This document shows positions 18,004-33,033 of a DNA stretch of 41,170 nt, piece after piece. Both the position numbers and the translations under genes were made by a program. The stretch comes from Minisyncoccota bacterium. GTDB lineage: Bacteria > Patescibacteriota > Minisyncoccia > Phycocordibacterales > UBA9973. Location of the stretch: positions 1 through 41,170 of the forward strand of contig JAGOPR010000007.1 of NCBI GenBank assembly GCA_017991895.1. Reading direction: 5' to 3'. Every line of letters begins with the position of its first letter. Position 1 is the first letter of the stretch. The notes beneath the pieces are model-generated. The model ran no database searches, had not been told where the DNA came from, and saw only the letters and a program-made list of their open reading frames with translations.

Positions 18004-18097
18004 ATTCCAAAGTTCGAGAAAAATTCATCAGGGTTGCCTTTTTTTATTCCGAAAATCCGTATTTAATAATACTCATTTGCCATAAATGGCAAGCTTG

Positions 18098-18186
18098 CGG
18101 AGACGGCGAGATTCGAACTCGCGAGGGGTTATGAAGCCCCTGCCTCTTTAGCAAAGAGGTACGTTAGACCACTCTGACACGTCTCC
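18098..18186 (-). tRNA. tRNA-Ser (anticodon GCT)
   Basis: Class II tRNA on the minus strand. Acceptor GGAGACG/CGTCTCC with discriminator G, anticodon stem CCTCT/AGAGG around the loop TTGCTAA (anticodon GCT at 18150-18152), a long variable arm with an AGGGG/CCCCT stem, and a GTTCGAATC-type T arm. It decodes AGC and AGU. Confidence 0.95.
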
Positions 18187-18272
18187 TTTAAAAACTTTCT
18201 CACTTTAGCACATTATTTGTAGTATTTCACTTTGGTTTCAAAAATGTTGAATATATTGTATAGTCTCCAGAC

Positions 18273-18359
18273 GGAAGCGTGGATGAGTGGTTTAAATCAA
18301 CAGTTTACTAAACTGTCGACCGTTAATTCGGTCCGTGAGTTCGAATCTCACCGCTTCCG
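18273..18359 (+). tRNA. tRNA-Ser-like (anticodon ACT)
   Basis: Class II tRNA. Acceptor GGAAGCG (18273-18279) pairs with CGCTTCC (18352-18358), and the discriminator is G18359. The anticodon stem ACAGT/ACTGT encloses the loop TTACTAA, so the anticodon is ACT (18307-18309). The long variable arm has the stem GACCG/CGGTC and the T arm is GTGAG/CTCAC with loop TTCGAAT. The long arm and discriminator G mark it as serine. The loop differs from the neighbouring tRNA-Ser(GCT) loop only by A for G at wobble position 34. A34 serine tRNAs for AGY codons are not expected in bacteria. The next ORF begins three bases after the tRNA. Confidence 0.88.
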
Positions 18360-18361
18360 CT

Positions 18362-19535: not shown

Positions 19536-19642
19536 TTAATACGGATGCAGTTCGCGACGCGAAGCTCGGCTTACGACTAAGCTGTATTAGGAATACAGCG
19601 CTGGAGCAAACGAGCGAGCAACAAAGAAATGCGCCGTATTTA
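19536..19642 (-). repeat. Stop-codon-adjacent repeat, copy 1
   Basis: Read on the minus strand it starts at the aminotransferase stop with ACGGCGCATTTCTTTGTTGC and ends with CTGCATCCGTATTAA. Copy 2 after the PEP carboxylase gene (25709-25908) begins ACGGCGCATTTCTTCGTTGC and ends CTGCATCCGTCTTCGTTAA. Both copies have the same orientation relative to their gene. The inside contains a hairpin CTGTATTCCTAATACAG. The two ends of each copy are imperfect inverted repeats of each other (ACGGATGCA and ACGGCGCAT). It may be a small non-autonomous mobile element or a 3' regulatory RNA. Confidence 0.7.
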
Positions 19643-20842
19643 CGAAATTCTGCCGGGGTAAGCCTCGAGTCCTTTTCTCAATATCTCCATCGAACGAGCC
19701 AATTTATCCTCGTGTAGTACATAGGCAATACGGATTTCGTTCACACCAAGTCCCTCTGTTATGTAAAAGTCGGGCATTGGGGAAATCATGACTGTTTCGC
19801 CATTATCAGAAAATTCACTAATCATGTACTTAACAAAGTTTTCTGCGCTATCTACAGGCAATGCTGCGTATATATAGAATGCTCCCATTGGTCGAGTGAC
19901 TACCACTCCTGCCATTGTACTTAATCCTTGATACACAACTTCACAGCGCTTTTTATATTCTGCGACGACTGGGTCAGTATATTTTTTTGAATCTGACATG
20001 AGCGGAATGAGCCCATACTGTTCGAGTGTGCCAACTGATAGACGAGCTTGAGCAAATTTTAAAACAGCACCCATGATGTCCAAGTTGTAAGACACAAGAC
20101 ATCCGACGCGAGCTCCGGGCATTGAGTAACGTTTTGAAACTGAATCTACAAGTACGACTGTTTCTTTTGCTCCTTCCATTGCGAGCATGCAAGAAGTGCG
20201 ACCGTCGAAACGGATTTCACGGTATGTTTCATCGGCGATGACGAAAATATTGTTGCGTTTCGCAATTCCAAGAATGCGTGCAAGTTCTTCCTCGCTCCAG
20301 AGTTTACCTGTTGGATTGTCTGGATTGATAACGACGATAGCTTTTGTTTTGTCTGTAATTTTGCTTTCAATTTCACTATCTGCCGGCATTGCAAATCCAC
20401 TTTCAGCTTTGAGTGTGATTGGAACGAGCTTTATGCCTATCATCACCGCGAATGATTTGTAGCTTACATAAAGTGGCTCGAATACAAGAATTTCATCACC
20501 GATATCGGCAACGGCCATTAGGGCAAGAAGAATAGCTTCAGCACAGCCTACGGTAGGGATAATATTTTTTGGCTCGATTGTTACTCCAAATTGTTTGTAG
20601 TAGGTAATCCATGCGTCAACGTGCTCCACAATTCCCGGAGAAGGAGCGTAAGGAAGATTTTTGCTACCGTAGCGTTTTATTTCAGCAAAAAATTCTTCCG
20701 GAACTTCAAGGTCGGGGTCACCGGCACTCATCTTATAAACTTTAATGCCCTTCTTTTCTGCCTCATACATATATGGCAAGAACTTACGAAGAGGCGAGGC
20801 GATGACGTTCGCTCCGCGTGACGATATTTGTAGGGATTTCAT
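19640..20842 (-). CDS. Class I/II PLP-dependent aminotransferase
   Basis: 400-aa fold-type I aminotransferase. PLP-binding Lys is K237 in DSVSKRYSMPGARVG. The substrate/cofactor motif VINPDNPTG and the IADETYREI aspartate motif are present, as is the C-terminal substrate-contacting Arg region (EIRIAYVL). Length is standard. Aspartate aminotransferase (oxaloacetate plus glutamate) is the most likely activity, which would connect to the PEP carboxylase encoded nearby, but substrate cannot be read from sequence alone. There is no Shine-Dalgarno sequence: the ATG is preceded directly by the end of a structured repeat element (ACTACCGG), and the stop codon is followed directly by a second type of repeat. 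Confidence 0.88.
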   Translation of the reverse strand: MKSLQISSRGANVIASPLRKFLPYMYEAEKKGIKVYKMSAGDPDLEVPEEFFAEIKRYGSKNLPYAPSPGIVEHVDAWITYYKQFGVTIEPKNIIPTVGCAEAILLALMAVADIGDEILVFEPLYVSYKSFAVMIGIKLVPITLKAESGFAMPADSEIESKITDKTKAIVVINPDNPTGKLWSEEELARILGIAKRNNIFVIADETYREIRFDGRTSCMLAMEGAKETVVLVDSVSKRYSMPGARVGCLVSYNLDIMGAVLKFAQARLSVGTLEQYGLIPLMSDSKKYTDPVVAEYKKRCEVVYQGLSTMAGVVVTRPMGAFYIYAALPVDSAENFVKYMISEFSDNGETVMISPMPDFYITEGLGVNEIRIAYVLHEDKLARSMEILRKGLEAYPGRIS

Positions 20843-20974
20843 CCGGTAGTGAAAAATGGCATAGCCTTGCGGCGAAATTTTTAGCCATTACTAATTAGGT
20901 TGATAATTGTTTATTTTGGCGCCTCGTTGAACTTTCACTTACCCGCAATGCCATTTTCTACTACGGGATTCATG
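20843..20974 (-). repeat. Start-codon-abutting inverted-repeat element, copy A
   Basis: A 132-bp element read on the minus strand towards the aminotransferase. Its left end is CATGAATCCCGTAGTAGAAA followed by ATGGCAT; its right end is ATGCCATTTTTCACTACCGG, directly joined to the start codon. The ends pair almost completely around a ~90-base loop. Copy B in front of pilM has the same ends with TGACAT/ATGTCA instead of TGGCAT/ATGCCA, a compensatory change. The left end contains a micro-ORF MNPVVENGIAGK (20973 to 20935), preceded at exactly six bases by TAAAAT. It could be a structured leader or a miniature mobile element. Confidence 0.78.
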
Positions 20975-21011
20975 TGGTGATTTTAACCCAAAAGTGAATT
21001 TGTGGCGAATA

Positions 21012-31770: not shown

Positions 31771-31905
31771 CATGAATCCCGTAGTGAAAAATGACATTAA
31801 AATTGAGGAGTGATATTTGGGTTTAAGTATGAGTCGTTTGATTAACAATATTATAGAATTTGATAGGTTTTGCGCTGAAAGCGCCATGTCATTTTCTACT
31901 ACCGG
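31771..31905 (+). repeat. Start-codon-abutting inverted-repeat element, copy B
   Basis: A 135-bp element running directly into the pilM start codon. Left end CATGAATCCCGTAGTGAAAA followed by ATGACAT; right end ATGTCATTTTCTACTACCGG. The ends match copy A in front of the aminotransferase, with paired substitutions that keep complementarity. It includes the micro-ORF MNPVVKNDIKIEE (31772-31813; the frame could also open at 31748) and a small hairpin GCGC-TGAAA-GCGC near the right end. No Shine-Dalgarno sequence precedes pilM. Confidence 0.78.
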
Positions 31906-33033
31906 ATGAATCTTATAACTGAATTTATGGATAAATTACATTTAAATATTCCTACATCACTAAGCTCACCCGACAGTGCTGTGGGTATTGATATTGGTAC
32001 TTCTTCAATCAAACTTGTCGAATTGAAGAAAAAAGGAGGGAAGGCCATTCTTGAAACATACAGTACTCTCGCTCTTGGCCCATATGCAAAACTCGATGTT
32101 GGAGCTACTACAAACTTGCCGACGGCAGATCTAACAAAGGCGTTAGCTGATGCTCTAAAAGAAGGCGCTATCGCTACCAAAGATGCGGCAATTTCCATAC
32201 CGTCCTCCGCGTCGCTTGTTTTCTTGCTTGAATTGCCGTCTGCCATAGGAGAAAAGGAGCTTGCCGATATAGTGCCGACAGAAGCTCGTAAATATATTCC
32301 AGTGCCAGTGTCGGAAGTATCGCTCGATTATTGGGTTATTCCGCATCAGGAAGAAGGCTTTTATGAAGAGGACGGGAGCGAGAGTAAGATTCCAGCAAAG
32401 AGTGAGGTTCTAACGGCAGCGATTCACAACGACACCCTTGCAAAGTATCGCGAGCTTGCCAGCAACTCAGGTCTCAATGCAAATATTTTTGAGATTGAAG
32501 TATTTTCTGCTATTCGCTCAACATTTGCGCACGAACTTTCAGCTGTTTTGCTTATAGACTTTGGTGCATCAAAAACTAAACTAGCTATTGTGGAATACGG
32601 CATTGTTCGAAGTTTTCATATCGTAAATCGTGGATCATTTGATATCACAAGTAATATCTCAAAATCACTTTCAATTCCGTTTGAACAAGCTGAAGACAGG
32701 AAGCGTGATATTGGGCTTCTTGGAACAGGAAATGACAAACAGGTTTCCGATATTGCAAAAATTGCCGTTGACTATATTTTTTCAGAATCTGCATCTGCGA
32801 TTTCAAATTTTGAACGTAAATACAATAAACCAATCAGTAAGATAATCCTGACTGGCGCAGGCTCGATGTTGAAAGGTTTTCATGAACAAGCACAAGAGAC
32901 ATTTAGAGTGGAAACAATAAAAGGAAACCCTTTTGACAAGGTTGAAGTGCCGGCTTTTATTACGAAGGTACTTGCTGAGACTGGACCGGAGTTTGCAGTT
33001 GCCCTCGGGTTAGCGTTAAGGAAGCTAGGGTAA
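31906..33033 (+). CDS. pilM: Type IV pilus assembly protein PilM
   Basis: 375-aa actin-like ATPase of the FtsA/PilM family that forms a cytoplasmic ring under the pilus machine and binds PilN. Phosphate-binding strand VGIDIGTSSIKLVELKKK (from about residue 26), second phosphate motif LLIDFGASKTKLAIVE, and the adenosine motif IILTGAGSMLKGF. The N-terminal extension (MNLITEFMDKLHLNIP) is amphipathic. It is the first gene of the pilus cluster but is separated from pilN by two unrelated genes. Its start is joined to the repeat element, which must therefore affect its translation. Confidence 0.93.
   Translation: MNLITEFMDKLHLNIPTSLSSPDSAVGIDIGTSSIKLVELKKKGGKAILETYSTLALGPYAKLDVGATTNLPTADLTKALADALKEGAIATKDAAISIPSSASLVFLLELPSAIGEKELADIVPTEARKYIPVPVSEVSLDYWVIPHQEEGFYEEDGSESKIPAKSEVLTAAIHNDTLAKYRELASNSGLNANIFEIEVFSAIRSTFAHELSAVLLIDFGASKTKLAIVEYGIVRSFHIVNRGSFDITSNISKSLSIPFEQAEDRKRDIGLLGTGNDKQVSDIAKIAVDYIFSESASAISNFERKYNKPISKIILTGAGSMLKGFHEQAQETFRVETIKGNPFDKVEVPAFITKVLAETGPEFAVALGLALRKLG

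Follow-up and report, generated by a model that had tools for sequence, protein, structure and literature searches.

The stretch of DNA analyzed here (the window) comprises 41,170 nucleotides of contig JAGOPR010000007.1 from a Minisyncoccota bacterium and contains two copies, A and B, of a short element that directly adjoins the start codons of an aminotransferase gene and of pilM. The genome containing the window is 751 kb in 34 contigs and is 93% complete. It holds five copies of the element, the two in the window and three others (C12:28922-29053, C26:43683-43814 and C24:3594-3732), and each of the five directly adjoins a gene's ATG. Their host genes are the aminotransferase (PF00155), pilM (PF11104), carA (PF00988) and two uncharacterized genes; one host protein has an N-terminus that weakly matches PF24838, below that family's cut-off, and one is short and of no recognized family. 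The features of the two window copies are listed here.

20843..20968, minus strand: element copy A, ~126 bp excluding the duplicated target; gene-sense is the minus strand
20969..20973, minus strand: far copy of the duplicated target ATGAA, the original start site, assigned from the sequence and from comparison with empty sites
20838..20842, minus strand: gene-side ATGAA, bases 1-5 of the aminotransferase gene (TTCAT on both sides in the plus strand)
20935..20973, minus strand: micro-open reading frame (micro-ORF) MNPVVENGIAGK with its stop, formed by the duplicated ATGAA and the element end
20948..20968, minus strand: distal terminal repeat, AG type (TCCCGTAGTAGAAAATGGCAT)
20843..20862, minus strand: gene-proximal terminal repeat, GA type (CCGGTAGTGAAAAATGGCAT on the plus strand)
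20980..20985, minus strand: TAAAAT box belonging to the original promoter of leaderless type, at a distance of six bases from the far ATG, with the same arrangement at empty sites
19640..20842, minus strand: host gene, class I/II aminotransferase (PF00155, E 5e-43)
~31778..31905, plus strand: element copy B, with the GA end distal and the AG end next to the gene, the reverse of copy A
31772..31777, plus strand: far copy of the duplicated target ATGAAT of copy B
31906..33033, plus strand: host gene pilM (PF11104, E 2.7e-36), beginning with the gene-side ATGAAT (31906-31911)

A preliminary description of this DNA had given the sequence and ends of copy A, its direct junction with the ATG, the second copy at pilM and the paired differences between the two, all of which we confirmed. 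The extent of 132 bp given there is also correct, but it includes one copy of the duplicated target ATGAA, and the element proper is ~126 bp (20843-20968). The TAAAAT six bases before the ATG of the micro-ORF is present at copy A, whereas copy B has no such box at that spacing. Both copies fold better than shuffled sequences (z -2.6 and -4.6 for A and B). Read in gene-sense, all five copies in the genome share the layout ATGNAT-CCnGTAGT-(AG or GA)-AAAATGNCAT ... ATGNCATTTT-(TC or CT)-ACTACnGG-ATGNA.

A pattern scan of GTDB contigs returned 105 stretches with the element, mostly from Paceibacteria (Nomura-, Zambryski-, Wolfe-, Vogel-, Kaiser-, Harrisonbacteria and others). When all sources were combined, 109 distinct Paceibacteria copies of at least 90 bp each remained; these counts derive from pattern searches and are lower bounds, and the copies are not independent in phylogenetic terms. 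The elements are mostly 110-142 bp long, with no transposase gene within. Duplication, stem and mismatch counts refer to 100 non-compound copies. A match in a viral contig was a single unpaired end and apparently due to chance, and matches in Bacteroidota and other phyla likewise consisted of one end each. With five copies in this genome and 109 overall, the element is not confined to the two copies first noticed, so that the existence of only two copies, which the preliminary description had named as refuting its reading, does not apply.

The elements are found almost exclusively at start codons. The codon directly after the gene-side end is ATG in 101 of the 109 copies, GTG in two and TTG in one, which answers in the affirmative (104/109) the earlier question of whether other copies also sit at start codons and not, for the most part, away from them. 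Most of these codons open long reading frames, and several of the short frames run into another element copy or the end of the locus. As a control, only 18 of 65 non-coding ATGNA sites in the window are gene starts, against 100 of the 109 copies (rough binomial P ~1e-45, with copies treated as independent), so survival in non-coding sites cannot by itself explain the distribution. The host genes, named from their N-terminal sequences and not by family search, are ones that we take to include dnaA, dnaN, topA (two genomes), secY, smc (two genomes), murG, rplB, rplQ, frr, pyrG, typA, ligA and mreB, as well as atpB, atpF and atpA in a single operon. Transcription starts were considered as the target and rejected: of 88 copies, only 26 have a strong -10 box at 4-10 nt upstream of the far ATG, which argues against promoters as such, and many hosts are internal to operons.

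The few exceptions away from start codons include two pilin genes of one genome (L212 1187-1317 and 5054-5184), where the elements are read in frame within the prepilin leader (GFT-PSVENG...FFTTG-FTLIELLVV). Residues added in this leader would be cut off by prepilin peptidase. In another locus (L182, near 6270) an element likewise lies in frame in a pilin gene, just before the G/FTLIE cleavage motif.

Several observations indicate that the elements are insertions. In 77 of the 100 non-compound copies the far side carries an exact repeat of the gene's opening five bases, ATGNA, including cases with a variable base such as ATGGA, ATGTA and ATGCA. Aminotransferase orthologues in two genomes of the same genus (G001 and G004, 77-78% identical) do not have the element; at these empty sites a -10-like box lies ~8 nt before the ATG, where the window has TAAAAT 6 nt before the far ATG, followed by the element. 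Similarly, topA occurs without the element in many relatives, and one empty flank (G014, TTTGCAAAAAAAACTAATCAATGTTACTAATGAAGTCACA joined to ATGAAA) is almost the same as the sequence that precedes the element in another genome (G018). Because these element-free orthologues join the promoter flank directly to the ATG, the elements must have been inserted between the two. Distribution is patchy: copies are present in nine of 60 relatives examined, several of which have at least eight matches, while sister genomes have none, and a strict pattern identifies the element in 13 of 297 genomes of the order. Tandem copies also occur (L209, L210 and L181). With terminal inverted repeats, target-site duplication, empty sites, multiple copies and no internal transposase gene, the elements have the structural features of a miniature inverted-repeat transposable element (MITE) and behave like one; the autonomous partner is only partly established.

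The ends of the element pair over ~20 bp, forming an imperfect terminal inverted repeat. Each position of the outer stem is paired in 86-100% of copies, with the exception of a fixed two-base mismatch. Compensatory change is found at the N of ATGNCAT (G-C in 63 copies and A-T in 30), and the 93 paired copies compare with a mean of 74 and a maximum of 82 in shuffles. The mismatch, one A.C and one G.U, is retained in 98 of 100 copies, with AG opposite TC in 86 and GA opposite CT in 12; the remaining two are AA/TT and AT/TC, and the repaired AG/CT pairing was never seen among the 100. Coordinated ends of either type (98) exceed those in shuffles (76, maximum 86). In 139 of the 140 pairs that could be aligned, among them 14 with swapped AG and GA ends, the inner part runs the same way relative to the gene; the lone exception, whose gene side was set by the longest ORF at a contig end, is probably mis-oriented. 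Both the mismatch and the inner orientation are therefore constrained.

A mini-ORF, ATGNCATTTTTCACTACnGG, lies within the conserved gene-side end. It terminates on the gene's start codon in 39 copies and reads into the gene in frame in 32, arrangements that would be compatible with reinitiation or a short extension; this role is a suggestion only, since 23 copies do neither. An Rfam search of the element gave no match above the noise or gathering score, and no group I or II intron core was matched.

Larger relatives of ~310-320 bp enclose a gene for a GIY-YIG endonuclease of 87-92 amino acids. Nine such genes lie between the ends CCnGTAGT-AG-AATTTTnRnY ... RnYnAAAATT-TC-ACTACnGG, which are the outer ends of the short element with the same mismatch, and only ~30 nt are present on each side of the gene. 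Six of the nine are at an ATG start and the first bases of the host gene, mostly ATGNA, are duplicated (L292, L317, L342, L344, L345 and L347). Five of these six have a seven-codon frame, MxPVVEF, that begins at the far ATG and stops a few bases before the GIY-YIG ATG. A profile scan added three further relatives with similar ends (L142, L314 and L333). At the topA start of one genome (G015), the inserted 94-codon GIY-YIG gene is in frame with the far ATG (MNPVRDNKYYYVYVLRS...FLSLTG) and its TGA stop overlaps the ATGA of topA. A second such case is L323, and in both L259 and L323 the host start codon doubles as the GIY-YIG start and the terminal TGA overlaps the restored ATGA. The domain assignment is firm (PF01541, E 2e-18), and in 12 GIY-YIG proteins the tyrosines of GIY..YIG, the glycine, the arginine and the glutamate are invariant. 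The long relatives thus encode a small GIY-YIG endonuclease, whose activity on the element ends or targets is predicted. The short element is present in three of five genomes with GIY-YIG relatives of this type compared with 13 of 297 overall (P ~6e-4).

Other families were observed in the same searches. A sister family with the ends CCCGTTAGAGA...TCTCTAACGGG lies between copies of ATGAAT (L126 from 5898, L136, L159, L203 and L209; Wolfebacteria NORP133), and has both non-coding members and GIY-YIG members (L259 and L323). A variant with ATGAAT-CCCGTTAGAGTTTTAC...AAAACTCTAACGGG-ATGAAA occurs at a start codon in L171 (4434 and 7951). Compound units, mostly from Zambryskibacteria (L141, L157, L166, L171, L175 and L226), consist of a short hairpin element (GTAGTAGAAGTTGGCA...), a linker such as GGGCTAT, a long element and the ATG of the gene. 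Hairpins of 35-90 bp with the same GTAGT..AG/GA stems (L084, L086 and L088-L092, from G046 and G055) have target duplications such as GCAAG and TATAAT, and most are off start codons. Other terminal repeats (e.g. CCCGCACACTTACTTTTTTA and CCCCACACCTATTGTTTTA) flank small GIY-YIG genes in L291, L327, L332 and L341. In L291 and L327, which derive from the same genomes as the relatives above, the repeats are perfect over at least 20 bp and of different sequence, so the link between small GIY-YIG genes and terminal repeats extends beyond this family. A further GIY-YIG subgroup is flanked by inverted repeats of 27-33 bp like GTCATCCTGAACTTGTTTCAGGAT (L311, L321 and L330, from G016, G030 and G002). 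Small GIY-YIG genes with terminal repeats are perhaps a broad class of mobile elements in bacteria of the Candidate Phyla Radiation (CPR). Elsewhere in the window (18097-18360), two tRNA-Ser genes (gct on the minus and act on the plus strand) occupy opposite strands of a span of less than 300 bases.

We consider it likely that the window copies are non-autonomous, MITE-like mobile elements of Paceibacteria that integrate at start codons and are linked to a GIY-YIG family. The basis for this reading is the ATGNA flanks, the empty sites, the imperfect repeats with their mismatch, the fixed inner orientation, and the GIY-YIG relatives with the same outer ends and target. We infer from the outer ends, mismatch, target and co-occurrence that the short and long forms are related, and the GIY-YIG protein is a candidate mover of the short copies. 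A GIY-YIG enzyme, or a similar one, might make a staggered cut across ATGNA; insertion of the element and filling of the gaps would then duplicate the start codon. The upstream signals, whether promoter or ribosome-loading site, are retained before the far ATG, and an intact gene follows the near one. Translation would start from this restored ATG, probably by termination-reinitiation or direct entry, with the folded element as an mRNA leader. The shared start codon and TGA/ATGA overlap in L259 and L323 are GIY-YIG examples that support a scheme of this kind.

Several points weigh against this interpretation. What the short and long forms have in common is limited to the outer part, CCnGTAGT-AG-AA, and the mismatch, and in the loci examined the exact AAAATGNCAT inner stem did not occur in any GIY-YIG copy. 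The only GIY-YIG gene in the 93% complete window genome is UvrC, with no small one present. About five of 15 GIY-YIG relatives with such ends are off start codons, and reinitiation cannot be universal given the mini-ORFs that neither stop on the start codon nor continue in frame. In addition, we know of no single-domain GIY-YIG protein that acts as a transposase.

A conventional enzyme, either a DDE transposase or a Y1 transposase of the type associated with repetitive extragenic palindromic (REP) sequences (RAYT), could instead move the element, with a shared target habit and convergent ends in the GIY-YIG relatives. Terminal repeats with a short target duplication are classic for DDE enzymes, both ends start with GTAG as in REP sequences, and Y1/RAYT genes are present in six of nine element-bearing genomes compared with three of 14 element-free genomes tested. 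However, the RAYT genes here are flanked by their own, different hairpins and not by any copy of the element ends, so that the matching terminal sequence expected of a REPIN/RAYT pair is missing and this candidate was rejected despite its enrichment. No longer element with the exact ends of the short elements was found in the loci examined, and the outer ends, the two-base mismatch and the start-codon insertion are all shared with the GIY-YIG elements. We regard a conventional mover as unlikely. RAYT-like Y1 genes between GC-rich hairpins of their own (e.g. CCAGGAGGCCTTGCCTCCTGG) were seen in L233, L234, L238, L245 and others. Matching codons around a strong hairpin, a conserved internal mismatch and an inner part oriented with the gene would also suit events at the RNA level, in which splicing removes the element or ribosomes bypass it by hopping from the far AUG to its identical near counterpart, with the gene expressed as it would be at an empty site. 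Yet about 12 of the 100 copies do not have a far ATG, the two pilin copies can be read in frame from end to end of the element and so look translated and not removed, and the element, with no Rfam match above noise, is too short for known introns; removal or bypass is improbable.

The preliminary description had offered two alternatives, a small mobile element that supplies a promoter and start region or a regulatory leader with a leader peptide. Copy number, target duplication and empty sites support a mobile element that supplies the start region. Supply of a promoter is not supported: any leaderless-type promoter that is present belongs to the ancestral flank, upstream of the element, and many host genes are operon-internal. 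A conserved cis-regulatory leader, such as an attenuator or riboswitch with a leader peptide, would account for the micro-ORF, the strong fold and the fixed position at the start codon. However, the host genes are unrelated, the element is not conserved at orthologues of any one pathway and is absent from those of sister genomes, target duplications and tandem copies occur, and the micro-ORF arises incidentally where the duplicated target joins the element end. We find a regulatory leader scarcely credible, and it is contradicted as a general explanation, although one domesticated copy could still regulate its gene. Cleavage of the long stem by RNase III, leaving a near-leaderless mRNA, would be compatible with mobile elements at start codons. 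The ~20-pair stem terminates at the ATG, and the RNase III cleavage reported for NEMIS/Correia RNAs provides a precedent (PMC2229807); we consider such processing quite unlikely, though conceivable.

Taking the mobile-element interpretation further, we propose tentatively, and with slightly less than even confidence, a new class of minimal transposon of ~300 bp, with a single-domain GIY-YIG protein as its sole enzyme, hairpin ends with an obligatory mismatch, insertion at start sites, and the window copies as non-coding passengers. If this is true, even essential single-copy genes could be invaded without loss of function. Exact entry at the start codon that leaves dnaA, topA, secY, ribosomal-protein and ATP-synthase genes intact is a neat lifestyle for a streamlined genome. 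The elements also provide a natural test of leaderless and reinitiation translation in CPR bacteria and a possible role for certain small GIY-YIG genes in these genomes. Gene callers should be warned that peptides of the MNPVVEN type are ends of mobile elements.

In the open-access literature we found no report of start-codon insertion or of bacterial GIY-YIG genes with terminal repeats, and nothing direct on the combination. REP/REPIN sequences and RAYT resemble the present system in the inverted GTAG at both ends and in their hairpins, but clear target duplications are found here and the RAYT genes of these genomes have other hairpins. Rickettsia palindromic elements are also small palindromes tolerated in genes, and the two pilin-leader copies resemble them in being read in frame; however, the present elements mainly target the start codon and not coding sequence. 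Bacterial MITEs such as Correia/NEMIS, RUP and ERIC (PMC2229807) are similarly 100-150 bp long with terminal inverted repeats, target duplication and no transposase gene, and their RNA can fold through the ends. In contrast, the present elements insert almost only at start codons, which are regenerated, have a conserved two-base stem mismatch, and have long relatives that encode GIY-YIG and not a known transposase. Insertion sequences in CPR rRNA genes likewise contain small GIY-YIG genes; they belong to neither of the intron groups I and II and look to be outside classical homing (PMC11270868). That account covers rRNA sites, and a term search of it returned nothing on inverted repeats or start codons. 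GIY-YIG homing endonucleases (I-TevI and free-standing phage enzymes) share the catalytic domain and mobility through a DNA cut, whereas the elements described here have no intron and no single-allele homing, and instead occupy many unrelated targets at which ATGNA is duplicated.
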